From: Pseudomonadota bacterium
Lineage (GTDB): Bacteria; Pseudomonadota; Gammaproteobacteria; Burkholderiales; Rhodocyclaceae
Assembly (NCBI GenBank): GCA_029776255.1
Contig: JAKOTN010000154.1
Location: 1 to 49,250 of the forward strand
DNA length: 49,250 nucleotides
Direction of reading: 5' to 3'
Position 1 is the stretch's first letter. The number at the start of each line of letters is the position of its first letter. A program made the translations under genes and the position numbers. The notes under the pieces are model-generated. The model ran no database searches and was not told the DNA's origin. It saw only the letters and a program-made list of their open reading frames with translations. This document shows positions 4,470 to 19,317 of the stretch, in pieces.

Positions 4470-5333
4470 TTAGCCGCCGAGCGTCGCATCGGCGCTCATC
4501 GCCGTCGCGCCGTCCGGCGCTTGCGCCGCCAAGGACAATCGGTCGCCGTCGGCGGCGCACACCAGACGAAACGGCGCCAGATCGAACAGCGGCGCCAGAC
4601 CGCGAAAACTGAATTCCCGAACCGGCCGCGCCACCTGCTCGCGCACCAGTTCCAGCAGCAAGACGGCGGTCAGCGGGCCATGCACCACCAAGCCCGGATA
4701 CCCCTCCTCGCCGATCGCATACGGCCGGTCGTAATGAATACGGTGCGCGTTGAAGGTCAAGGCCGAGAAGCGAAACAGCAGCGTCGAATCCGGAACGACG
4801 ATGCGCGAACATGCCTCGACGGGTAGCGGTGGCCAGTCCTTCACCGACGGAGTCGCAACGGCCGGACCCGGCTCGCGATAAACGATATCCTGCTCCTCTT
4901 CGATACACAACGACTCGCCCTGGTAATACGCGCAGTGCACCGAGACGAATGCCAGAGAACCGGAGCGTCCCGATTTCTGGCGGATGTCGCGGATCACCGC
5001 CACTCGCCGCGCCAACTGACCAATGCGCAAAGGGTGATGGAAACGCAGCCGCGCGCCGGCGAACATCCGGCGGGGATAGGGAATCGGCGGCATGAAACCG
5101 CCGCGACGCGGGTGCCCGTCGTTGTCGAGCGCGCTTTGCGGCGCTCGCGGCAAGAAGTAGAACCAATGCCACAAAGGAGGCAAGGCGCCGCCAACCTCGA
5201 AAAGCGTGCGGGTATCGTTCAGTGTCGCCGCCGCGGCCAGGGCCGGCGCAAGCGCGATTTCATCGTCGACGACCTCCTGACGTCCGATCCATTCGACATA
5301 ATCTGGCGTCGCGTCGGCTATTGCGTCGGTCAT
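4470..5333 (-). CDS. meh: Mesaconyl-C4-CoA hydratase (3HP bi-cycle)
   Basis: The enzyme hydrates mesaconyl-C4-CoA to (S)-citramalyl-CoA, the step before Mcl cleavage. The 287-residue protein has an N-terminal FAS1-dehydratase/MaoC-like half and a C-terminal hot-dog domain with FNAHRIHYD (His197, His200) and GLVVHGPL. This pattern is shared with Chloroflexus Meh and the fungal Htd2-like dehydratases. The ATG at 5333 follows a near-perfect AAGGAGG. A further in-frame start upstream at 5381 lacks such a site. The gene is divergent from smtA-smtB-mct-mcl-mch, and all partners of the glyoxylate-assimilation cycle are present. By sequence alone it could be another acyl-CoA hydratase; the neighbours decide the call. 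Confidence 0.82.
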   Translation of the reverse strand: MTDAIADATPDYVEWIGRQEVVDDEIALAPALAAAATLNDTRTLFEVGGALPPLWHWFYFLPRAPQSALDNDGHPRRGGFMPPIPYPRRMFAGARLRFHHPLRIGQLARRVAVIRDIRQKSGRSGSLAFVSVHCAYYQGESLCIEEEQDIVYREPGPAVATPSVKDWPPLPVEACSRIVVPDSTLLFRFSALTFNAHRIHYDRPYAIGEEGYPGLVVHGPLTAVLLLELVREQVARPVREFSFRGLAPLFDLAPFRLVCAADGDRLSLAAQAPDGATAMSADATLGG

Positions 5334-5371
5334 TGGACCCCTCCTTTCGAGCGTGCCGGGGTGGCCCGGCA

Positions 5372-5400
5372 AGTACAGCACAGCGCCACGCGAAACTCAA
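5372..5400 (-). promoter_or_regulatory. Candidate sigma70 promoter for meh
   Basis: On the minus strand a TTGAGT (-35, complement of 5395-5400) is followed after 17 bp by TGTACT (-10, complement of 5372-5377). Each hexamer matches 4 of 6 consensus bases. A GC hairpin (GCCGGG/CCCGGC, 5355-5370) lies at the predicted transcript start. Confidence 0.4.
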
Positions 5401-5563
5401 GCCGGAACGCCGTTTCGTCATGGCTTCGTCGTGGTTTAGCCACCGATGACCGATCGGCGCGCCAAGGGTGCCGTTTAGCCGTATACTTGCGAAGAAATAT
5501 TGACACCGCAGCCGGCGCGTGGGCAAAACGCGGAGGAGTCCGGTTGCATCGGGAGAAAGCGGG

Positions 5564-6931
5564 ATGGAACTGGAAGCAGGTTCGGCGGATTTCGCCTCTT
5601 CGCGGGCCGAATCCGCGAACGCCGCCGCCAGCACGCGCAGGGTGATCGATAACGACCCGGCGTCGGCGAGCGAGCGGGCGACCGGCGTTCCACCGACGGC
5701 GGACCCCGATCGGGAACAAGCGGCCGACAACGACCATCTGCCAATGAACGGCCTGCGCGTGATCGACGTCGGCACCTTTCTCGCCGGCCCTTACGCCGCC
5801 TCCATCCTGGGCGAATTCGGCGCCGAGATCCTGAAGGTCGAACACCCGATCGCCGGCGATCCGATGCGCCGCTTCGGCACCGCGTCGAAGCGTCACGACG
5901 CGACACTGGCCTGGCTCAGCGAAGGCCGCAACAAAAAATCGGTCACTCTTGATCTGCGGCAACAGGAAGGCGTCGAGTTGTTCCTGAAACTGGTCGCCAA
6001 ATCGGATGTGCTGATCGAAAACTTCCGACCGGGCACGATGGAGGAATGGGGGCTGGGCTGGGAGGAATTGAGCAAGGCCAACCCCGGCCTGGTGATGCTG
6101 CGGGTGTCGGGATACGGGCAGACCGGGCCGTACCGGCGGCGCTCTGGATTCGCCCACATCGCGCATGGCTTCGCCGGCCTGTCCTACCTCGCCGGTTTTC
6201 CCGGTGAAACGCCGGTGGTGCCCGGCACGGCGCCGCTTGGCGATTACCTGTCCAGCCTGTACGGCGCGATCGGCATCCTGATCGCCTTGCGTCACCGCGA
6301 AGCCACCGGCGAAGGCCAGATCATCGATATCGGCATCTACGAGGCCGTGTTCCGGCAGATGGACGAAATCGCCGCCGCCTATGGCCTGTTCGGCAAGATC
6401 AGGCGGCGCGAAGGTGCTGGCAGCTTTGTCGCCGTGCCGCACGGCCACTTCCGCACCGTCGACGACAAGTGGGTGGCGATCGCCTGCACCACCGACAAGA
6501 TGTTCGAGCGCTTCGCGGCGGTGATGGGCAAGCCCGAGCTTGCCGCCGCCGACGCCTATGGCGATCAGCGCAAGCGTCTGGCGGCGCGCGACGAGGTCAA
6601 CCGTCTCGTCATCGACTGGGTCGGCTCGCTGACCCGCGACGAGGTGATGCGGCTTTGCATCGACGGCGAGGTGCCGATCGGCAAGCTGAACAGCATCGCC
6701 GACATCTTCGAGGACACGCATTTCCAGGCGCGCGGCAATCTGGCCCGCCTCAAGGAAGAAGGCCTGGGCGAAGTGGTCATCCCCGGCGTGGTGCCGACCT
6801 TGTCTGAAACACCGGGCCGGATTTCGAACCTCGGACCGCCGCTAGGCAATGCCACCTACGAGGTCCTGCGCGAGTTGCTCGGCATTTCCGCGCAGGAAAT
6901 CAAGCGACTACGGCAAAACAAGATTATCTGA
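5564..6931 (+). CDS. smtA: Class III CoA-transferase, SmtA-type succinyl-CoA:(S)-malate CoA-transferase subunit
   Basis: This is a family III (formyl-CoA transferase/CaiB-like) CoA-transferase, predicted to move CoA from succinyl-CoA to malate or citramalate. The core begins at [19 protein letters not shown]. The catalytic Asp lies in [11 protein letters not shown] (Asp227 from this start). The core is closely similar along its whole length to the next gene, as expected for the two Smt subunits. I chose the ATG at 5564 because GGGAGA lies 7 bases upstream. It leaves about 60 polar, Ala/Asp-rich residues before the conserved core; an ATG at 5744 would remove them but has no good ribosome-binding site. 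A GTG at 5519 is also in frame. The gene probably opens the operon running to mch. Confidence 0.8.
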
Positions 6932-6953
6932 ACGGGCCACTGCGAGAACCGCC

Positions 6954-8183
6954 ATGACCACCACCGATCAGGCCGACGCGCGCTTACCGCTCGCCGGCAT
7001 CCGCGTCATCGATGCCGCGACGGTGATCGCCGCGCCTTACAGCGCATGCATTCTCGGCGAATTCGGTGCCGAGGTGCTGAAAGTGGAAAACCCGAAAGGC
7101 GGCGATCCGATGCGTCACTTCGGCACGCCGACCGCGCGCAAGGACACGCTTGCCTGGCTCAGCGAAGCGCGTAACAAGAAATCGGTCACCATCGACCTGC
7201 ACTTGCCCGAAGGCGTCGAACTGTTCAAGAAGCTGATCGAGCAATCGGACGTGCTGTGCGAGAATTTCCGCCCCGGCACCCTGGAAAAATGGGGACTTGG
7301 CTGGGACGTCCTGCACGCGATCAACCCGCGTCTGATCATGTTGCGCGTCACCGGCTACGGGCAAACCGGCCCTTACCGCGATCGCCCGGGCTTTGCCCGC
7401 GTCGCCCACGCCGTCGGCGGAATCGCCTTTCTTTCCGGCATGCCGCGCGGTACGCCGGTGACGCCGGGATCGACCACCCTCGGCGATTACCTCACCGGGC
7501 TCTACGGCTGCATCGGTATCCTGATGGCGTTGCGCCACCGCGAACGCACCGGCAAGGGCCAGTACATCGACGCCGCGCTGTACGAATCGGTTTTCCGCTG
7601 CACCGACGAACTGGCGCCGGCTTACGGCATGTTCGGCCGCATCCGTGAGCGGCATGGCCCGACGCATAACGATTTTGCCTGTCCGCACGGGCATTTCCCG
7701 ACCAAGGACGACGGCAAGTGGGTGGCGATTTCCTGCGTCACCGACAAGCTTTTCGAGCGCTTGGCGATTGCCATGGGCCGGCCGGAACTGGCCGCGCCAC
7801 ATGTGTATGGCGATCAGAAAACGCGGCTGGAAAACCGTCACGACGTCAATGAAATCGTCCGCGACTGGTGCGGTTCACTGCACCGAGAGGAAATTCTCGA
7901 CCGCTGCTTTGCCGCCGGCGCGCCGGCCGGACCATTGAACAGCATCGCGGATATCTTCGGCGACCGTCAGTTCCACGCCCGCCGCAACCTCCAGGCCATC
8001 GACGAGACCGACATCGGTGAAACGGTGATCGTGCCGTCGGTCATTCCGCGCCTGTCGGCCACGCCGGGGCGCATCAAGCATCTCGGCCCGCGCCTGGGGC
8101 AACACACCGAGGAAGTGCTCGGCGATCTGCTGGGCCTCGACGCCGCCGCGATCCAGGCGCTGCGCGACAAACGGGTGATCTGA
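6954..8183 (+). CDS. smtB: Class III CoA-transferase, SmtB-type subunit
   Basis: This 409-residue family III CoA-transferase is the paralogue of the preceding gene. They share blocks such as [39 protein letters not shown] and NSIADIF. The catalytic Asp is Asp178 in [11 protein letters not shown]. In Chloroflexus, SmtA and SmtB together form succinyl-CoA:(S)-malate CoA-transferase, and this adjacent pair is the likely counterpart. It starts 22 bp after smtA and ends 19 bp before mct, so the operon is tight. Which subunit corresponds to SmtA or SmtB is assigned only by order and the length of the N-terminus. An unrelated role such as oxalate or carnitine CoA transfer is possible but unlikely here. 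Confidence 0.8.
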
Positions 8184-8202
8184 GGAATCGGGAGAAAAAA
8201 CG

Positions 8203-9423
8203 ATGAACGGTATTCTCAAGGGTTTGCGTATCGTCGAAGGCTCGGCCTTCGTCGCCGCGCCGCTCGGCGGCATGACGCTAGCGCAACTGGGCGCCGAGGT
8301 GATCCGTTTCGACCCCATCGGCGGCGGTCTCGACCACGCGCGCTGGCCGCTCAGCCGCGACGGCCGGCACAGTCTGTTCTGGGCAGGGTTGAACAAAGGC
8401 AAACTCTCCATCGCCGTCGACTTCCGCCAGCCGCGCGGACAGGAACTGCTCACCCAACTGATCTGCGCGCCGGGCGAAAATGCCGGCCTGTTCAGCACCA
8501 ATTTCCCCGCCAAGGGCTGGCTGTCCCACGAGGCATTACAGGCGCACCGTCCCGACCTGATCATGGTCAACCTCACCGGGCGCCGCGACGGCGGTTCGGA
8601 AGTCGACTACACGGTCAACCCGCAGATCGGCCTGCCGGCGATGACCGGCCCGACCGACACACCGAACATGGTGAACCACGTTTTCCCGGCCTGGGATTTC
8701 ATCAGCGGACAAATGATCGCCGTTGGCCTGCTCGCCGCCGAAAGACACCGCCGACTGACCGGCGAGGGGCAGCTGGTCCGTCTGGCGCTCAAGGACGTGG
8801 CGCTGGCGATGATTGGCAACTTCGGGATGATCGCCGAGGTGATGATCAACGACGCCGACCGGCCACGGCAAGGCAACTACCTCTACGGCGCCTTCGGCCG
8901 CGACTTCGAAACGCTGGATGGAAAACGCCTGATGGTCGTCGGGTTGACCGACATGCAATGGCGCTGCCTGCTCAAGGCCACCGGCCTACAGACGGAGATT
9001 TCCGCGCTGGCCGCGCGCCTGGGCCTCGACCTTGACGATGAAGGCAACCGTTTCCGCGCCCGGCAGCAAATCGCGGCCGTTCTGGAACCGTGGTTTCATG
9101 CCCGCACCCTGGCCGAAGCCGCCGGCATCCTCAACGCCCATCGCGTCACCTGGGGTCCCTATCGCAGCGTTCGCGAGGCGCTGGCCTGCGATCCCGATTG
9201 CTCCGCCGACAATCCGATGTTCCGCCTGACCGAGCAAGCGGGCGTCGGTTCCTATCTGATGCCGGCGACACCGCTCGACTTCTCGCGCGTGCCGCGCCTG
9301 CCGGCGATGCCGGCGCCGACGCTTGGCGAACACACCGATCGGATTCTGCTCGACATTCTCGGCTTGAGCGAGGCCGAAGTCGGCCGCCTGCACGACGACC
9401 GCATCGTCGCCGGTCCGGCCTGA
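8203..9423 (+). CDS. mct: Mesaconyl-CoA C1-C4 CoA transferase
   Basis: The enzyme performs an intramolecular CoA transfer that converts mesaconyl-C1-CoA to mesaconyl-C4-CoA. The 406-residue protein is a class III CoA-transferase clearly distinct from the two Smt-like genes beside it. Mct-type segments include [49 protein letters not shown] and [20 protein letters not shown]. The predicted nucleophile is Asp165 in [16 protein letters not shown] at 8190-8194 serves the ATG at 8203. Its position between the smt pair and mcl is the order expected for the glyoxylate-assimilation cluster. I recognise the Mct type strongly from the protein sequence itself, not only from context. Confidence 0.9.
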
Positions 9424-9491
9424 CCCGACCGACGAGCGCCCGTGCTGTCCGGCACTGTCGGACCACCTTACCCTTCACCAGGAGCACCGCC

Positions 9492-10535
9492 ATGAAGCTA
9501 CCCCTCCATTTCTACAAGCCCCTCGCCATTGGCGCGCCACAACCCTTGCGTGAACTGCCGGTGCGACCGGAACGAATGATCCACTTCTTCCCGCCGCATA
9601 TCGACAAGATTCGCGCCAAGGCACCGGAAACCGCCCGGCAATGCGACGTGATGTGCGGCAACCTGGAAGACGCCATCCCGATCGAATGCAAGGACGCGGC
9701 CCGCGCCGGCTTCATCGAGCTGCTGTCCCAACACGATTTCGGCGATACCGGCATGTGGGTGCGGATCAACGCCTTGAACAGCCCGTGGGTGCTCGACGAC
9801 CTCCATGAAATCATCAAGCATGTCGGCGACAAACTCGATGTGATCATGATTCCCAAGGTCGAAGGCCCCTGGGACATTCACTTCGTCGATCAATACGTCG
9901 CCTTGCTGGAAGCCAAGTATGGCATCAGGAAACCCATCCTGCTGCACGCCCTGCTGGAAACCGCGCAAGGGGTGACCAATGTCGAGGCGATCTGCGGCGC
10001 CAGTCCGAGAATGCATGGCCTGAGCCTGGGTCCCGCCGATCTCGCCGCCTCGCGCGGCATGAAAACGACGCGCGTCGGCGGCGGACATCCCGGTTACGGC
10101 GTTCTCGCCGACCCGGAAGCCGGTAGCGGACAACGCGCTTTTTTCCAGCAGGATCTCTGGCATTACACCGTCGCACGCATGGTCGATGCCGCCGTCGCGC
10201 ATGGCTTGCGCTCCTTCTACGGCCCGTTCGGCGACCTCAAGGACGAAGCCGCTTGCGAAGCACAGTTCCGCAACGCTTTCCTGATGGGCTGCTCCGGCGC
10301 CTGGTCGCTGGCCCCCAACCAAATCGCCATCGCCAAACGCGTCTTCAGCCCAGACGTCAAGGAAGTCTTGTTCGCCAAGCGCATTCTGGAAGCAATGCCC
10401 GACGGCAGCGGCGTCGCCACCATCGACGGCAAAATGCAGGACGATGCCACCTGGAAACAAGCCAAGGTCATCGTTGATCTGGCCCGCCTGGTGGCGCGGC
10501 GCGATCCGGAACTGGCCGCCGCCTACGGCCTGTAA
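9492..10535 (+). CDS. mcl: Malyl-CoA / beta-methylmalyl-CoA / (S)-citramalyl-CoA lyase
   Basis: This CitE-superfamily lyase acts at two steps. It condenses glyoxylate with propionyl-CoA to beta-methylmalyl-CoA, and it cleaves (S)-citramalyl-CoA to acetyl-CoA and pyruvate. It also handles (S)-malyl-CoA. At 347 residues it has the length of the Chloroflexus trifunctional enzyme and a longer C-terminus than plain CitE. Visible signatures are NLEDAIP (metal-binding Glu/Asp), [20 protein letters not shown] (catalytic Glu) and [14 protein letters not shown], with the C-terminal DDATWKQAK segment. The frame is open further upstream, but the ATG at 9492 has an AGGAG 7 bases before it and gives the family N-terminus. 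It is third from the end of the operon, 68 bp after mct. Confidence 0.92.
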
Positions 10536-10569
10536 AATAGTCAGACAGAAGAAACAGGGAGACCGTCGC

Positions 10570-11628
10570 ATGAGTGAAAAGACCCGCCTGGGCAATTTTT
10601 TCGAAGATTTCAGCGTGGGACAAACCATTGCCCATGCCACGCCACGCACCCTCACCGAAGGCGATGTCGCCCTCTACACCGCTCTCACCGGTTCGCGTTT
10701 CGCCACCAGCTCGGCCGACACCTTCGCGCACAGTCTGGGATTTCCACGCTCGCCGGTGGGCGATCTGCTCGCTTTCAACGTGGTCTTCGGCAAGACCGTG
10801 CCCGACATTTCACTAAATGCCATCGCCAACCTTGGCTACGCCGCCGGCCGCTTCGGGCATCCGGTCTATCCGGGCGACACGCTCAACGCCGATTCGACGG
10901 TCATCGGCCTCAAGGAGAACAGCGATGGCAAGAGCGGCATCGTGTACGTCCGCTCGTGCGGCATCAACCAGCGCGGGCAGATCGCGCTCGAATATTGCCG
11001 CTGGGTGATGGTGCGCAAGCGCGATCCGTCCTCGCCGGCGCCGGAAGCCGTCGTGCCGGAGCTGCCCGACGCGGTACCGGCAAACGAGCTGATCGTTCCG
11101 GCAGGCATTCGCATCGATCAGTACGATTGCGCGCTCGCCGGCAGCACCGACATGTGGGACGACTACGAAATCGGCGAGCGGATCGATCACGTCGACGGGA
11201 TGACGATCGAGGAAAGCGAACACATGATGGCCACCCGCCTCTATCAGAACACCGCCCGGGTGCATTTCAACCAGCAAACCGAGCAGTCCGGCCGCTTCGG
11301 CCGACGCCTCGTCTACGGCGGTCACATCATCAGTCTGGCGCGCGCGCTGAGCTACAACGGTCTGGCCAACGGGTTCAGCGTCGCCGCGATCAACGGGGGG
11401 CGGCATGTCGCGCCCGCTTTCGCCGGCGACACGGTTTACGCCTGGTCGGAAATCCTCGACAAGATGATGCTGCCGGGGCGGAACGACATCGGCGCTCTAC
11501 GTTTGCGAACGGTGGCCACCAAGAACCGGCACGGCGCGGACTTCCCTTACAAACTCGCCGACGGCCGTTACGACCCCTGCGTATTGCTCGACTTCGACTA
11601 CACGGTGCTGTTTCCGCGACGACAGTAA
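10570..11628 (+). CDS. mch: Mesaconyl-C1-CoA hydratase (beta-methylmalyl-CoA dehydratase)
   Basis: The enzyme dehydrates erythro-beta-methylmalyl-CoA, the Mcl product, to mesaconyl-C1-CoA. The 352-residue protein is a double hot-dog, MaoC-like enzyme of the Mch type. It starts with GNFFEDFSVGQ, has SPVGDLLAFNVVFGKTVPDIS in the first half and an RVHFNQQTEQSGRFGRRLVYGGHI-type hydratase loop in the second; the motif extends from about residue 234 to 257. AGGGAG at 10556-10561 fits the ATG at 10570. It follows mcl by 34 bp and closes the cluster. The same enzyme type also acts in the ethylmalonyl-CoA pathway. Here mct and meh are adjacent, and that pathway's crotonyl-CoA carboxylase is absent from the window, so the 3HP-type cycle is the better reading. 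Confidence 0.9.
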   Translation: MSEKTRLGNFFEDFSVGQTIAHATPRTLTEGDVALYTALTGSRFATSSADTFAHSLGFPRSPVGDLLAFNVVFGKTVPDISLNAIANLGYAAGRFGHPVYPGDTLNADSTVIGLKENSDGKSGIVYVRSCGINQRGQIALEYCRWVMVRKRDPSSPAPEAVVPELPDAVPANELIVPAGIRIDQYDCALAGSTDMWDDYEIGERIDHVDGMTIEESEHMMATRLYQNTARVHFNQQTEQSGRFGRRLVYGGHIISLARALSYNGLANGFSVAAINGGRHVAPAFAGDTVYAWSEILDKMMLPGRNDIGALRLRTVATKNRHGADFPYKLADGRYDPCVLLDFDYTVLFPRRQ

Positions 11629-11938: not shown

Positions 11939-12535
11939 ATGTTCCAGGTACGAATACACGGTCGCGGTGGCCAGGGTGTGGTAACGGCCGCCGAGATGTT
12001 GTCTATCGCCGCATTTGAGGAAGGTCGCCACGCCCAGGCCTTTCCGAGCTTCGGTTCCGAACGCACCGGCGCGCCGGTCGTCGCCTTCTGTCGAATTGCC
12101 GACAAGGAAATTCGGCTACGCGAACCGATCATGGAGCCCGACGCGCTGATCATCCAGGACCCGACGCTGCTCTATCAGGTCGACGTGTTCTCGGGCTTGA
12201 AGAAAGGCGGTCTGATTCTGATCAACACCAGTCGCAGCTTCACCGAGCTCGGGCTTGCCGACTACGTTCGCGACTGGCCGGCGGAGAAACTGTGTACGGT
12301 TCCCGCCACGGACCTTGGCCGCAAACATGTCGGTCGCCCCATGCCAAATGTGCCCTTGCTCGGCGGCTTCGCGGCTGCCGCCGGCATCCTCCGGCTGGAA
12401 TCCGTCGTCAAGGCCATCAACGCAAAATTCTCGGACAAGATCGCCAGCGGCAACATCGCCGCCGCCACCGAAGCGTATCAATTCGTCAACGATGAGATCG
12501 CCGCCGCTTGTCATCAGGAGACCGCTCATGCTTAA
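11939..12535 (+). CDS. porG: 2-oxoacid:acceptor oxidoreductase gamma subunit (probable pyruvate:ferredoxin oxidoreductase)
   Basis: The 198-residue protein is the gamma (CoA-binding) subunit of a multi-subunit 2-oxoacid:ferredoxin oxidoreductase. It begins with the hallmark HGRGGQGVVTAAEML and continues with AFPSFGSERTGAPV and IMEPDALIIQDPTLL. A full AGGAGG (11928-11933) is correctly spaced to the ATG at 11939. The gene order is gamma, alpha, beta, then a flavoprotein, and the stop overlaps the start of the alpha gene by 8 bp. Pyruvate is the favoured substrate because Mcl makes pyruvate and acetyl-CoA directly upstream and ppdK follows. 2-Oxoglutarate or another 2-oxoacid cannot be ruled out from sequence. 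Confidence 0.85.
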   Translation: MFQVRIHGRGGQGVVTAAEMLSIAAFEEGRHAQAFPSFGSERTGAPVVAFCRIADKEIRLREPIMEPDALIIQDPTLLYQVDVFSGLKKGGLILINTSRSFTELGLADYVRDWPAEKLCTVPATDLGRKHVGRPMPNVPLLGGFAAAAGILRLESVVKAINAKFSDKIASGNIAAATEAYQFVNDEIAAACHQETAHA

Positions 12536-13781
12536 ACAAACCGAAGGTTCGCACGCTGTTGCCGAAGCCATCGCCCTGTGCCGGCCGGAAGTGATCTGCG
12601 CCTACCCGATTTCACCGCAAACGCACATTGTCGAAGGCTTGGGTGAAATGGTGAAAGCCGGCGAAGTCAAAGACTGCGAATTCATCAACGTCGAGTCCGA
12701 ATTCGCGGCGATGAGTGTCGCCATCGGCTCCTCGGCCACCGGCGCCCGCACCTACACCGCCACCGCCTCGCAAGGTCTGCTATTCATGGTCGAGGCGGTC
12801 TACAACGCCTCCGGCCTCGGCCTGCCGATCGTCATGACGGTGGCCAATCGTGCCATCGGCGCGCCGATCAACATCTGGAACGATCACTCCGACTCGCTTT
12901 CGCAGCGCGATTGCGGCTGGATTCAATTGTTCGCCGAAACCAACCAGGAAGCGCTGGATCTTCACATCCAGGCGTTCAAGCTGGCGGAAGAAATCAGTCT
13001 GCCGGTCATGGTGTGCATGGACGGCTTCATTCTGACGCACGCATACGAGCGCGTCGATGTGCCGACTCAGGAACAAGTCGACGCTTTCCTGCCACCGTAC
13101 GAGCCACGCCAGGTGCTGGACCCGAAGGAGCCGGTGTCGATCGGCGCCATGGTCGGTCCGGAAGCCTTCTCGGAAGTCCGTTATCTGGCGCACGCCAAAC
13201 AGATGCAAGCGCTCGAACTGATTCCGAAGCTGGCCGAGCAGTTTCAGGCGGTCTTCGGTCGCGACAGCGGCGGTCTGACCCATACCTATCGCACCGAAGA
13301 CGCCGAAGTCATCGTCGTCGCCATGGGTTCGGTGCTCGGCACGATCAAGGACACCGTGGATGAAATGCGCGAGGCCGGCGATAAGATCGGCGTGCTGGGG
13401 ATCACCTCTTACCGGCCATTCCCGATCGACGCGGTTCGCTCCGCGTTGCAGAACGCACAACGCGTGGTCGTGCTCGAAAAAAGCCTGGCGGTCGGTATCG
13501 GCGGCATCGTGTCGACCGACGTGCGCATGGCGATGTCGGGCCTGAATCTCCACGGTCACACCGTTGTCGCCGGTCTCGGCGGCAGAGCGATCACGCGCAA
13601 ATCGCTGCGCGCCTTGTTCACCAAAGCCTTGCGTGGCGAACTCGAGCACCTCACTTTCCTCGATCTCGACTGGAAAGTGGTCAACAAACAACTTGAACGC
13701 GAGCGCACGACCCGCCGTTCGGGTCCGGCGGCCGAAAGCATGCTGCGCGACGTCGGCGTCATTGCCGCGCGCATTGGTTGA
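12528..13781 (+). CDS. porA: 2-oxoacid:acceptor oxidoreductase alpha subunit (probable pyruvate:ferredoxin oxidoreductase)
   Basis: This 417-residue subunit combines the PYR-type domain (EGSHAVAEAIALCRPEVICA, YPISPQTHIVE) with transketolase C-like domain II. The INVESEFAAMSVAIGSSATG segment contains the conserved Glu that activates thiamine diphosphate. TATASQGLLFM and ANRAIGAPINIWNDHSD are typical of the pyruvate-oxidising branch. The ATG at 12528 has AGGAG 7 bases upstream, inside the end of porG. The beta gene follows 11 bp after the stop. Assignment to pyruvate rather than 2-oxoglutarate rests on family resemblance and context, not on a decisive residue. Confidence 0.85.
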   Translation: MLKQTEGSHAVAEAIALCRPEVICAYPISPQTHIVEGLGEMVKAGEVKDCEFINVESEFAAMSVAIGSSATGARTYTATASQGLLFMVEAVYNASGLGLPIVMTVANRAIGAPINIWNDHSDSLSQRDCGWIQLFAETNQEALDLHIQAFKLAEEISLPVMVCMDGFILTHAYERVDVPTQEQVDAFLPPYEPRQVLDPKEPVSIGAMVGPEAFSEVRYLAHAKQMQALELIPKLAEQFQAVFGRDSGGLTHTYRTEDAEVIVVAMGSVLGTIKDTVDEMREAGDKIGVLGITSYRPFPIDAVRSALQNAQRVVVLEKSLAVGIGGIVSTDVRMAMSGLNLHGHTVVAGLGGRAITRKSLRALFTKALRGELEHLTFLDLDWKVVNKQLERERTTRRSGPAAESMLRDVGVIAARIG

Positions 13782-13792
13782 GGGGATACGAC

Positions 13793-14806
13793 ATGAGTTT
13801 TCAACCCGTCCATTTTTATCAAACTGGCACCTTCACCGTTGGCAACCGTCTGCTCACCGCCGAGGAACGCAGCGTGCAGGCCAACATCGAGCGCACCAAT
13901 TCGCTGAACTCGGGACACCGTGCCTGCCAAGGCTGCGGCGAGGCACTCGGCGCCCGCTACGCCATCGATGCGGCGATGAACGCCGCGCGCGGCCGTCTGA
14001 TCGCCGCCAACGCCACCGGCTGCCTTGAAGTTTTCTCCACGCCCTACCCGGAAACGTCCTGGCAAATTCCCTGGATCCACTCGCTGTTCGGCAACACCGC
14101 CGCGGTCGCCACCGGTATTGCGGCGGCAATCAAGATCAAACGGCAGAAAGGCCAGTCCGGCGATGTCCGCGTCGTCGCGCAGGGCGGCGACGGCGGCACC
14201 ACCGACATCGGTTTCGGCTGCCTTTCCGGAATGTTCGAGCGCAACGACGATGTGCTCTACATCTGCTACGACAACGGCGGCTACATGAATACCGGCGTGC
14301 AACGCAGTTCGGCCACCCCGCCGGCCGCGCGCACGGCGACCACCATGCCAGTCGGCCCCGAACCGGGCAACGCCTTCGGCCAGGGCAAGTTTGTCCCGGC
14401 CATCGCCATGGCGCATGAAATCCCCTACGTGGCGACCGCCACCGTCGCCGACCTGCGCGACCTTGAAGCCAAGGTCACCAAAGCGATGAGCATCCGCGGC
14501 GCGCGCTACATTCAGATTTTGGTGCCCTGCCCGCTCGGCTGGGGCGCGGCGTCGCACGACACCATCCGCCTGGCGCGCCTGGCCAAGGAAACCGGCATCT
14601 TTCCAGTTTTCGAGGCGGAAAACGGCGAAGTCACCAGCGTGCTCAAAATCCGCCGGCCATTGCCCGTCGAAGATTATTTGAAGCTCCAGAAACGTTACGC
14701 CCATCTGTTCGGCAAGACGCCGGCCTTGGCGACGATCGCGCGCCTGCAAGCGGCGGCGGACAAGAACATTCGAAAATATGGACTGCTTGACCAGGAGGCA
14801 AACTGA
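13793..14806 (+). CDS. porB: 2-oxoacid:acceptor oxidoreductase beta subunit (thiamine diphosphate-binding)
   Basis: The 337-residue beta subunit binds thiamine diphosphate-Mg and one 4Fe-4S cluster. GGDGGTTDIGFGCLSGMFER and the downstream YDNGGYMNTG form the GDG...N diphosphate-binding motif. Cysteines for the cluster are seen in HRACQGCGEALG, ATGCLEVFSTP and LVPCPLGW. The YMNTGVQRS segment is typical of pyruvate-type enzymes. The start ATG at 13793 is preceded by GAGGGG. Its TGA stop shares one base with the ATG of the next gene (TGATG), so the flavoprotein is translationally coupled to it. Confidence 0.88.
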   Translation: MSFQPVHFYQTGTFTVGNRLLTAEERSVQANIERTNSLNSGHRACQGCGEALGARYAIDAAMNAARGRLIAANATGCLEVFSTPYPETSWQIPWIHSLFGNTAAVATGIAAAIKIKRQKGQSGDVRVVAQGGDGGTTDIGFGCLSGMFERNDDVLYICYDNGGYMNTGVQRSSATPPAARTATTMPVGPEPGNAFGQGKFVPAIAMAHEIPYVATATVADLRDLEAKVTKAMSIRGARYIQILVPCPLGWGAASHDTIRLARLAKETGIFPVFEAENGEVTSVLKIRRPLPVEDYLKLQKRYAHLFGKTPALATIARLQAAADKNIRKYGLLDQEAN

Positions 14807-16428
14807 TGGATAAGCCCTTTGCCATAACCCTCGATCCCGGCTCTTCGCTGGCCAACCGCACCGGCTCCTGGCGAACCTCGCGGCCGGTTTATCTCGACCG
14901 CTTGCCGCCGTGCAACAAACAATGCCCTGCCGGTGAAGACATTCAAGGCTGGCTGTTCCATGCCGAATCCGGCGATTACGAAAGCGCCTGGCGACATCTG
15001 ACCACGGACAACCCCTTCCCGGCGATCATGGGACGCGTCTGCTACCACACCTGTGAAGGCGCCTGCAACCGCGGGCAAGTCGACGCGGCGGTCGGCATCA
15101 ATTCCGTCGAGCGTTTTCTCGGCGACGAAGCGCTCAAGCGCGGCTGGAAACTCTCCGCGCCGACCAGCGACACCGGCAAGCATGTGCTGGTCGTCGGTGC
15201 CGGTCCATCCGGGATGTCGGCCGCCTATCATTTGCGCCGCCTCGGTCATCGGGTCACCATTCACGAAGCCGGTCCCATGCTCGGCGGCATGATGCGTTTC
15301 GGTATTCCGAAATACCGCCTGCCGCGCGATGTGCTGGACGCGGAAATGCAGCGTGTGGTCGACATGGGAATCACCGTTCACCTGAACAGCAAGGTCGACA
15401 ACATCTTGTCGACCATGCAAGAAGGTACGTTCGATGCCGCCTTCCTGGCCGTCGGTGCGCACATCGGCAAGCGGGCGCGCATTCCGGCGGGTGACGCGGC
15501 GAAAATCATCGACGCCATCTCGCTGCTGCGCAGCATGGAAGGTGAAGAAAAACCGCTGCTCGGCCGCCGCGTCGTCGTTTACGGCGGCGGCAACACGGCG
15601 ATCGACGTGGCGCGTACCGCCAAGCGCATGGGTGCCGAACCGCTGATCGTTTACCGCCGCACCCGCGAAAAAATGCCTGCACACGATTTCGAAGTCGAGG
15701 AAGCGTTGCAAGAAGGCGTGATGGTCAAGTGGTTGTCGACCATCAAGCAAGCCGGTGAATCGTCGCTGACCATTGAAAAGATGGCTCTGGACAGCAACGG
15801 TTTTCCGCAACCGACCGGCGAATTCGAAACCATCGAGGCCGACTCGCTGGTTCTCGCGCTCGGCCAGGATGTCGATCTCGGCCTGCTTGACGGCGTTCCC
15901 GGACTGGAAGTCAGCGACGGCGTGGTTCAGGTCGACGCCAACATGATGACCGGCCACGCCGGCATTTTCGCGGGTGGCGACATGGTGCCGGCCGAGCGCA
16001 ACGTCACCGTCGGTATCGGCCACGGCAAGAAAGCCGCCCGGAATATCGATGCCTGGCTGCGTGGCGAGCAATACGTCGCCCCGACCAAGCATGAGGTCGC
16101 GTCTTTCCAAAACCTCAATCCCTGGTATTACGCCGACGCACCGAAAACGGTACGGCCGATGTTGGACATCATTCGCCGCCAGTCCACTTTTGACGAAGTG
16201 CAAGGCGGCCTCGACGAAAATACGGCCCTGTTCGAAGCTCGCCGCTGTTTGTCTTGCGGTAACTGTTTCGAATGCGACAACTGTTACGGTGTGTGCCCGG
16301 ACAATGCGGTAATCAAACTCGGAGCCGGCAAGCGCTTCGAGTTCAACTACGACTACTGCAAGGGTTGTGGCATGTGCGTCGCCGAATGTCCATGCGGCGC
16401 GATCAAGATGGAAGCGGAAGAAATTTGA
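14806..16428 (+). CDS. porD: GltD-like NAD(P)H flavoprotein fused to a 2[4Fe-4S] ferredoxin (delta subunit of the oxidoreductase)
   Basis: The 540-residue fusion has three parts. An N-terminal Cys-rich segment (Cys36, Cys40, Cys79, Cys83, Cys87) resembles the Fe-S part of the glutamate synthase small subunit. The middle has an FAD Rossmann motif near residue 127 (VLVVGAGPSGMSAAYHLRR) and an NAD(P)H motif VVVYGGGNTAIDVARTAKRM. The C-terminus is a bacterial 2[4Fe-4S] ferredoxin whose Cys clusters start at Cys481 (CLSCGNC) and Cys518 (CKGCGMCVAECPCG). It replaces the small ferredoxin delta subunit usual in such complexes and should link 2-oxoacid oxidation to NAD(P) directly. AGGAGG at 14793-14798 precedes its ATG. 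Confidence 0.85.
   Translation: MDKPFAITLDPGSSLANRTGSWRTSRPVYLDRLPPCNKQCPAGEDIQGWLFHAESGDYESAWRHLTTDNPFPAIMGRVCYHTCEGACNRGQVDAAVGINSVERFLGDEALKRGWKLSAPTSDTGKHVLVVGAGPSGMSAAYHLRRLGHRVTIHEAGPMLGGMMRFGIPKYRLPRDVLDAEMQRVVDMGITVHLNSKVDNILSTMQEGTFDAAFLAVGAHIGKRARIPAGDAAKIIDAISLLRSMEGEEKPLLGRRVVVYGGGNTAIDVARTAKRMGAEPLIVYRRTREKMPAHDFEVEEALQEGVMVKWLSTIKQAGESSLTIEKMALDSNGFPQPTGEFETIEADSLVLALGQDVDLGLLDGVPGLEVSDGVVQVDANMMTGHAGIFAGGDMVPAERNVTVGIGHGKKAARNIDAWLRGEQYVAPTKHEVASFQNLNPWYYADAPKTVRPMLDIIRRQSTFDEVQGGLDENTALFEARRCLSCGNCFECDNCYGVCPDNAVIKLGAGKRFEFNYDYCKGCGMCVAECPCGAIKMEAEEI

Positions 16429-16587: not shown

Positions 16588-19317
<2,730 letters not shown>

Follow-up and report, generated by a model that had tools for sequence, protein, structure and literature searches.

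The six-gene array and its proteins

The stretch of DNA analysed here, 49,250 nucleotides of contig JAKOTN010000154.1 from a Rhodocyclaceae genome (assembly GCA_029776255.1; the whole stretch is hereafter called the window), was originally predicted to carry a complete glyoxylate-assimilation loop of the 3-hydroxypropionate bi-cycle, with meh divergent from a tightly spaced smtA-smtB-mct-mcl-mch series whose family motifs are intact. At this location lie six intact open reading frames, meh on the minus strand and the five others divergent from it on the plus strand, from about 5564 to 11628:

4470..5333, minus strand: meh, proposed mesaconyl-C4-coenzyme A (CoA) hydratase of 287 amino acids, named from its relatives and its divergent position
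5334..5563, no strand: intergenic region between the divergent meh and smtA
5564..6931 (probable start), plus strand: smtA, family III CoA-transferase (CoA_transf_3; 80% to the Chloroflexus sp. locus)
6954..8183, plus strand: smtB, family III CoA-transferase (CoA_transf_3; 74% to the Chloroflexus sp. locus)
8203..9423, plus strand: mct, 2-methylfumaryl-CoA isomerase (TIGR04253; PDB 8apq and 7xkg; key residues)
9492..10535, plus strand: mcl, malyl-/beta-methylmalyl-/citramalyl-CoA lyase (PDB 6kin and 4l7z; seven residues)
10570..11628, plus strand: mch, mesaconyl-C1-CoA hydratase (beta-methylmalyl-CoA dehydratase; PDB 4e3e and 8hgn; MC_hydratase)

The predicted array stands: the plus-strand genes are separated by 22 (smtA/smtB), 19 (smtB/mct), 68 (mct/mcl) and 34 base pairs (bp; mcl/mch), and Mct and Mcl retain the catalytic residues that were looked at. 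For smtA, the start at 5564 is more likely than that at 5744: the ATG at 5564 is preceded by gggagaaag, which resembles a ribosome-binding site, and in six of the relatives examined SmtA has a low-complexity N-terminal stretch with a methionine 47-59 residues upstream. With smtA starting at 5564, the divergent gap to meh is about 230 bp. No consensus sigma-70 site was found in this region (5334..5563), and neither the promoter scan (0 promoter-like sites versus 0.8 in shuffles) nor the terminator scan (9 terminator-like sites versus 8.0) rose above chance. Contamination of the contig is unlikely, as tgt, secD and secF lie on the same contig and the array is also found in genomes of the same genus; the contig further holds purB-, cbb3 oxidase subunit-, ileS-, lspA- and ispH-like genes.

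Alignment with the Chloroflexus proteins, proposed as a check along with the prediction, gave 67-81% identity for all six to their counterparts at an uncultured Chloroflexus sp. locus, L028 (Meh 67, SmtA 80, SmtB 74, Mct 78, Mcl 81 and Mch 70%). Mct exceeds the curated TIGR04253 cut-off (828.5 versus 725 bits) and scores 744 bits to PDB 8apq and 745 bits to 7xkg, the Chloroflexus and Roseiflexus enzymes respectively (PMC9813914, PMC9196870). The key residues described in these reports are the nucleophile Asp165, Arg47, Leu/Ile43 and Tyr136; the window Mct retains D165, R47, L43 and Y136, and in the Mct alignment R47, Y136 and D165 are found in 80/80 rows and L43 in 79/80. Two CoA-contact positions differ, being F74 and K104 rather than I and R, with F in 35/80 and K in 20/80 rows. 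Mcl scores 673 bits to PDB 6kin and 663 bits to 4l7z, versus 193 bits to 4l9y, which PMC3832036 gives as the Rhodobacter lyase of the ethylmalonyl pathway. The Chloroflexus Mcl residues listed by the same source, Asn58 (type-specific), Glu60, Asp61, Arg92, Glu157, Asp184 and Asp318, are all kept with a constant offset of one (N58, E60, D61, R92, E157, D184 and D318). Score and residues thus make Mcl a probable member of the tri-functional Chloroflexus type, with predicted cleavage activities. Mch scores 572 bits to PDB 4e3e, named a MaoC domain protein dehydratase, and 468 bits to 8hgn, named beta-methylmalyl-CoA dehydratase; it matches the MC_hydratase Pfam family, and its close relationship to the latter structure extends over the whole length.

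The adjacent smtA and smtB encode predicted family III CoA-transferases that are the counterparts of the Chloroflexus pair. Neither protein comes near the cut-offs of the models for formyl-CoA, oxalate, carnitine and succinate-glutarate CoA-transferases, and no other curated family matched either above its cut-off. The GDY motif lies at residue 167 of the SmtA core and at residue 178 of SmtB, and by analogy its aspartate in SmtA would be the catalytic aspartate of the family. Kinship with oxalate, carnitine or ethylmalonyl-pathway enzymes, which would have spoken against the original prediction, was not seen by score for SmtA, SmtB, Mct or Mcl; a gene tree was built for Mct, without an oxalate or carnitine outgroup.

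Genome content and the use of the loop

The genome carrying the window measures 3.79 Mb and is rated 100% complete with 0.22% contamination. It encodes isocitrate lyase and malate synthase, i.e., the classical glyoxylate shunt, each of these enzymes being found in 28/28 genomes of the genus; a replacement of malate synthase by the loop was rejected on this count. Two matches to methylmalonyl-CoA mutase and five carboxyltransferase matches were obtained, one of the latter on the contig of a mutase. The malonyl-CoA reductase (Mcr) query, taken from L057, gave 11 matches, all single SDR-like pieces, the best by E-value being 33% identical over 199 of 1292 residues, and the propionyl-CoA synthase (Pcs) query, taken from L073, gave 17 matches in separate synthetase, hydratase and other frames, 40% identical at best; both queries were themselves named from their domain make-up. 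The genome search suggested with the prediction therefore found isocitrate lyase and carboxyltransferases and did not find Mcr or Pcs. The accompanying statement that no autotrophic first-cycle genes lie nearby holds within the window, with the qualification that other parts of the genome carry mutase and carboxyltransferase genes.

As the bi-cycle is not closed as far as searched, the proposed heterotrophic co-assimilation of glyoxylate and propionyl-CoA is supported by the absence of detectable Mcr and Pcs and by the presence of the shunt enzymes and of a mutase. We consider it very probable, from gene identities and genome content, that the array is the heterotrophically used glyoxylate-assimilation half of the 3-hydroxypropionate bi-cycle. 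In such a loop, beta-methylmalyl-CoA would be dehydrated by Mch to mesaconyl-C1-CoA, Mct would shift the CoA from C1 to C4, Meh would add water to mesaconyl-C4-CoA to give (S)-citramalyl-CoA, and Mcl would cleave the latter into acetyl-CoA and pyruvate. Glyoxylate could come from malate through SmtAB, via malyl-CoA and Mcl, or from the isocitrate lyase encoded elsewhere, and propionyl-CoA from propionate or from the methylmalonyl-CoA mutase route; pyruvate might leave through the pyruvate oxidoreductase-like enzyme or the dikinase encoded just downstream. The bookkeeping closes with and without the Smt step: glyoxylate and propionyl-CoA yield acetyl-CoA and pyruvate.

A complete autotrophic bi-cycle, with its first-cycle genes elsewhere in the genome, is the reading suggested by some Burkholderiales bins and one Gemmatimonadota bin, in which the same genes adjoin a propionyl-CoA-synthase-like gene, joined in L057 by a double-SDR malonyl-CoA-reductase-like gene; complete bi-cycles have been published for both groups, according to PMC9802188. 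In this genome, rated complete, the two queries returned only single SDR-like pieces and separate frames, and we rejected autotrophy here as extremely improbable.

Downstream of mch lie five further genes:

11939..12535, plus strand: porC-like, 2-oxoacid (pyruvate) oxidoreductase (POR) gamma subunit (subfamily TIGR02175, 201 bits, cut-off 81)
12528..13781, plus strand: porA-like, alpha subunit (PorA_Arch, 466 bits, below the cut-off of 550)
13778..14806, plus strand: porB-like, beta subunit (PRK11865, 325 bits, below the cut-off of 405)
14806..16428, plus strand: GltD-like NAD(P)-binding protein with a C-terminal PorD-type ferredoxin domain (PRK12771, 778 bits, cut-off 516; TIGR02179, 69 bits, cut-off 60)
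16588..19317, plus strand: ppdk, pyruvate, phosphate dikinase (PPDK; TIGR01828, 1333 bits, cut-off 843)

The best matches of the POR-like proteins are pyruvate synthase subunits; pyruvate is the likely substrate, with the alpha, beta and gamma subunits all below equivalog cut-offs. The GltD-PorD fusion (14806-16428) suggests an NAD(P)-linked 2-oxoacid oxidoreductase. porC follows mch in 22/26 fetched same-genus regions, the exceptions being G002, G004, G017 and G019, and ppdk was seen, at 87-90% identity, in 15 of these 22. In six of the other seven the stretch or contig ends before or near ppdk; G010 differs in having a fragmented porD, after which the next match is just 33% identical. A scan of genome contigs with Mct gave 473 stretches that encode a relative, and the best 80 of them serve as the loci compared here. 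Outside the window's group no por array was found beside the loop in these 80 loci at the thresholds used, L053 having only a 32% porD-like match; the Accumulibacter-type loci L002, L007, L012, L015 and L020 have none beside the loop either.

Several points weigh against the heterotrophic glyoxylate-assimilating loop. (i) Meh is identified, as a proposal, from its relatives and from the divergent position that it shares with other loci: its PDB relatives 8huc and 8khg score 214-215 bits and bear the names MaoC_dehydrat_N domain protein and itaconyl-CoA hydratase (8khg), its FAS1_DH_region match is weak, and no NCBIfam model matched it. (ii) The steps of the loop are reversible, so that the propionyl-CoA-forming direction is open to it. 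A mainly reversed array would turn acetyl-CoA and pyruvate into propionyl-CoA (for polyhydroxyvalerate) and malate; PMC3832036 reports that Mcl can produce citramalyl-CoA in vitro when pyruvate is in excess, and PMC9196870 that the Mct transfer is reversible. We hold this direction to be unlikely as the main one. (iii) smtAB were not found in half of the genus (see below) and are therefore not essential to the remaining role of the cluster there. (iv) The array may be regulated jointly with por-ppdk, but a single transcript from mch to porC is left open by the 310-bp gap between them, by the strong ribosome site of porC itself and by the lack of a promoter signal.

smtAB and the ethylmalonyl-CoA operon in the genus

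We searched the 28 genus genomes (G000 and 27 others) with SmtA at an E-value of 1e-100. smtAB are present in 14/28 (SmtA 91-100% identical; SmtB detected at 59-63% to SmtA), and nothing was found by this search in the other 14/28; among genomes at least 90% complete the count is 12/23. The smtAB-less set comprises the one-contig genome G015 as well as the incomplete G003 (72%), G018 (83%) and G011 (88%), the G011 locus having just 120 bp upstream of mct. mct is present in 13/14 of these genomes, the exception being G008. In a tree of the locus built from mct, mcl and mch, with 31 rows (G008, without mct, and G010, with a split mct, were excluded; L158 covers 37% of the columns), smtAB presence requires five changes, at least four of them forced by starred branches. 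Recognisable remnants were found upstream of mct in 2/13 smtAB-less loci (L148 and L153): G018 retains 285 bp of smtA at 80%, and G025 several fragments of smtA and smtB. The tree changes, the remnants and the six-gene order conserved in other phyla point to repeated loss of smtAB in the genus, although the tree rests on genes of this very locus and some of the changes could instead reflect its transfer. The loop is thus complete, as predicted, in the window's genome, but not throughout the genus.

The crotonyl-CoA carboxylase/reductase (Ccr) model is matched over its cut-off in 23/28 genus genomes, and not in the window's genome (best 72.8 bits versus a cut-off of 378.55), G006, G008, G018 and G024. 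In 16/23 ccr and mct share a contig and lie 7.4 to 20.6 kb apart, ccr being in G021 (L179) on the far side beyond ppdk and tgt. Among the others, G003 and G027 have other ethylmalonyl operon genes beside mct or smtA, ccr shares a contig with smtA and meh in G026, the mct contig of G011 is just 4.5 kb long, and in G002, G004 (L183) and G020 ccr is on another contig, with no operon genes in the stretch fetched around mct. An ethylmalonyl operon thus lies near the mct array in many genomes of the genus (L172-L182, and L171, which is G015). In G015 (L171:4457-17097) it consists, in this order, of genes for a DUF6986 protein, methylsuccinyl-CoA dehydrogenase (623 bits to 8ciw), a mesaconyl-CoA-hydratase-like protein, a mutase, a MeaB-like protein, Ccr, a quinone-oxidoreductase-like protein, a MaoC protein and Meh, so that meh belongs to the operon instead of adjoining smtA or mct. 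The 672-residue mutase scores 524 bits to the methylmalonyl-CoA mutase model (cut-off 876) and is presumed to be of the ethylmalonyl type. On a Propionivibrio aalborgensis contig (L024), mch is followed in the same orientation by maoC and the genes for the DUF6986 protein, the dehydrogenase and the mutase. That array and operon occur together in two arrangements and in two genera speaks for a functional link between them.

Some features of these operons were noted in passing. Ccr (L171:12677-14428) has two C-terminal CBS domain matches, which suggests nucleotide control. The DUF6986 protein (480 amino acids; L171:5228-6667 and L005:4670-6109) looks by eye like a CitE-type lyase and is a candidate lyase; its HpcH/HpaI and malate-synthase Pfam matches are both below cut-off, no PDB relative was found by sequence, and its predicted fold (mean pLDDT confidence 50) was not used. 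G017 (L158/L180) retains mct beside the operon, with an open reading frame read by eye as a RuBisCO large subunit on the other side; neither mcl nor mch was seen in these 20-kb regions.

The proximity of the operon raises the question of whether Mch and Mcl mainly serve the ethylmalonyl-CoA pathway, turning mesaconyl-CoA into glyoxylate and propionyl-CoA, in which case Mct and Meh would form a side branch. The ccr count in the genus, the recurrence near mct of an operon with methylsuccinyl-CoA dehydrogenase, mutase and ccr, and the raised ethylmalonyl-pathway transcription reported for Accumulibacter (PMC12604563) would fit this. However, the window's genome lacks ccr by the score given above and gave just two mutase matches, the first on contig 60 with 36% identity to the mutase of the relatives, the second within a 1120-residue frame at 25%; for this genome we regard such a role as very unlikely. 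The loop is kept there and the ethylmalonyl half is absent.

For most of the same-genus relatives, we tentatively propose a composite route in which the ethylmalonyl half feeds mesaconyl-C1-CoA into Mct, Meh and a lyase to give pyruvate, a possibility that we hold to be clearly the less probable side. Starting from acetyl-CoA, or from crotonyl-CoA out of stored polyhydroxybutyrate, Ccr, the mutase and methylsuccinyl-CoA dehydrogenase would form mesaconyl-C1-CoA, from which Mct, Meh and the lyase would yield acetyl-CoA and pyruvate directly. The bookkeeping gives a net conversion of acetyl-CoA and CO2 to pyruvate, which would be free of ferredoxin, and PPDK at the locus could channel the pyruvate towards glycogen, i.e., from one stored polymer to another. 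Malate-derived glyoxylate would then no longer be needed, which might explain the recurrent loss of smtAB, but the counts show no such link: genomes with and without smtAB stand at 11:12 among the 23 ccr-positive genomes and at 3:1 among the four ccr-negative genomes with mct (Fisher p = 0.60, not significant), and a tie between smtAB loss and ccr was rejected. Also against the composite route, ccr and mct are apart in G002, G004 and G020, four genomes, the window's included, hold mct without ccr, and an ordinary flow to glyoxylate and propionyl-CoA accounts for the operon genes equally well.

Distribution and comparison with known systems

The full six-gene array, in the same order and on the same strands, is found in 31 of the 80 kept loci, those cut by a contig end being counted as misses; by record title, 15 are Pseudomonadota, 12 Chloroflexota and 4 Gemmatimonadota. 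The Mct tree has 80 rows, made up of the window and 79 loci, one of the 80 having fallen to a coverage cut. In it the window groups with Accumulibacter, Propionivibrio, a Dechloromonas and related records in a 25-row clade that is starred (99), and nine betaproteobacterial copies cluster elsewhere with three Gemmatimonadota. This pattern fits the horizontal spread described in PMC6593406. Judged by these neighbours, the genus of the window's genome is probably that of relatives of the wastewater bacterium Accumulibacter. Among 150 relatives, the window's own genome included, 26 exceed the Mct cut-off, and every one of them belongs to this genus; G118 (716 bits) and G119 (562 bits), from other families, come near or part-way to it. 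The genus genomes without a full match are G008, with no strong match, and G010, in which mct is in two overlapping frames (G010:C12:52634-53843) within an otherwise full six-gene array, by frameshift or assembly error.

Mct homologues 62-72% identical, with smtAB absent at the locus, were seen in L043-L044, L046-L047, L049, L053-L054, L059-L060, L062, L065, L068-L069, L072 and L076 (Alphaproteobacteria-, Myxococcota- and other records). Five of the Myxococcota type have only distant hydratase and lyase neighbours (26-30%). In such loci Mct may have a role in other pathways.

The statement, in the original prediction, that parts of this cluster occur in Accumulibacter-type genomes is borne out by PMC6593406, and the finding is therefore largely known. 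In searches of the open-licence literature we found no report joining Mct with an ethylmalonyl operon in Accumulibacter, nor any of smtAB loss or of the por-ppdk link, which is weak evidence of novelty. The value lies in the comparison, namely the repeated smtAB loss and a locus shared with an ethylmalonyl-CoA operon that is absent from the window's genome. It supports the view that, in the Accumulibacter group, the C5 half of the bi-cycle is a portable module for heterotrophic use, and makes testable both the purpose of the module where the malate-feeding step is lost and its coupling to the neighbouring operon. Such coupling matters for the interpretation of the raised 'ethylmalonyl-CoA pathway' transcription that PMC12604563 reports for Accumulibacter when phosphate is limiting.

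The Chloroflexus and Roseiflexus glyoxylate-assimilation cycle has the same six genes in the same divergent order, as in the 12 Chloroflexota arrays; the window shares the identity to L028 and the checked catalytic residues given above, and differs in that its genome has a glyoxylate shunt, POR-like and PPDK genes downstream of the array, and no detected Mcr or Pcs. The ethylmalonyl-CoA pathway has mesaconyl-C1-CoA, beta-methylmalyl-CoA, glyoxylate and propionyl-CoA in common with the loop, whereas the window's genome lacks ccr and a close relative of the ethylmalonyl-type mutase (ecm), and its Mcl and Mch are of the Chloroflexus type, Mch being just 27-31% identical to the hydratase of the ethylmalonyl operon.

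Burkholderiales and Gemmatimonadota have been credited with the potential for complete bi-cycles (PMC9802188). In L045, L048, L055-L057, L066, L067 and L073, which belong to these groups, the meh/smtA-smtB-mct-mcl-mch array is that of the window and Mct lies elsewhere in the tree. A pcs-like gene adjoins the array in L055, L057, L066, L067 and L073 (truncated where the contig stops in L055 and L057), and L057 has an mcr-like gene too; no pcs-like gene was seen in the stretches of L045, L048 and L056. Propionyl-CoA synthase-like genes near Mct were noted in L055, L057, L061, L063, L066, L067 and L073, of Burkholderiales type with one Gemmatimonadota bin, in agreement with PMC9802188.

PMC6593406 describes partial bi-cycle genes in Kentron, Thiosymbion, Riegeria, Competibacter and Accumulibacter (Betaproteobacteria). 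By that account Kentron lacks Mcr and Pcs, is proposed to assimilate organic substrates, is not predicted to have the ethylmalonyl pathway and has an incomplete glyoxylate shunt, whereas the window's genome holds both shunt enzymes. The table of that paper, as we read it, gives Kentron and Thiosymbion a PPDK and a pyruvate synthase as well; in the window, by comparison with the organisms described there, the genes stand together in a single array, and por and ppdk follow it directly.

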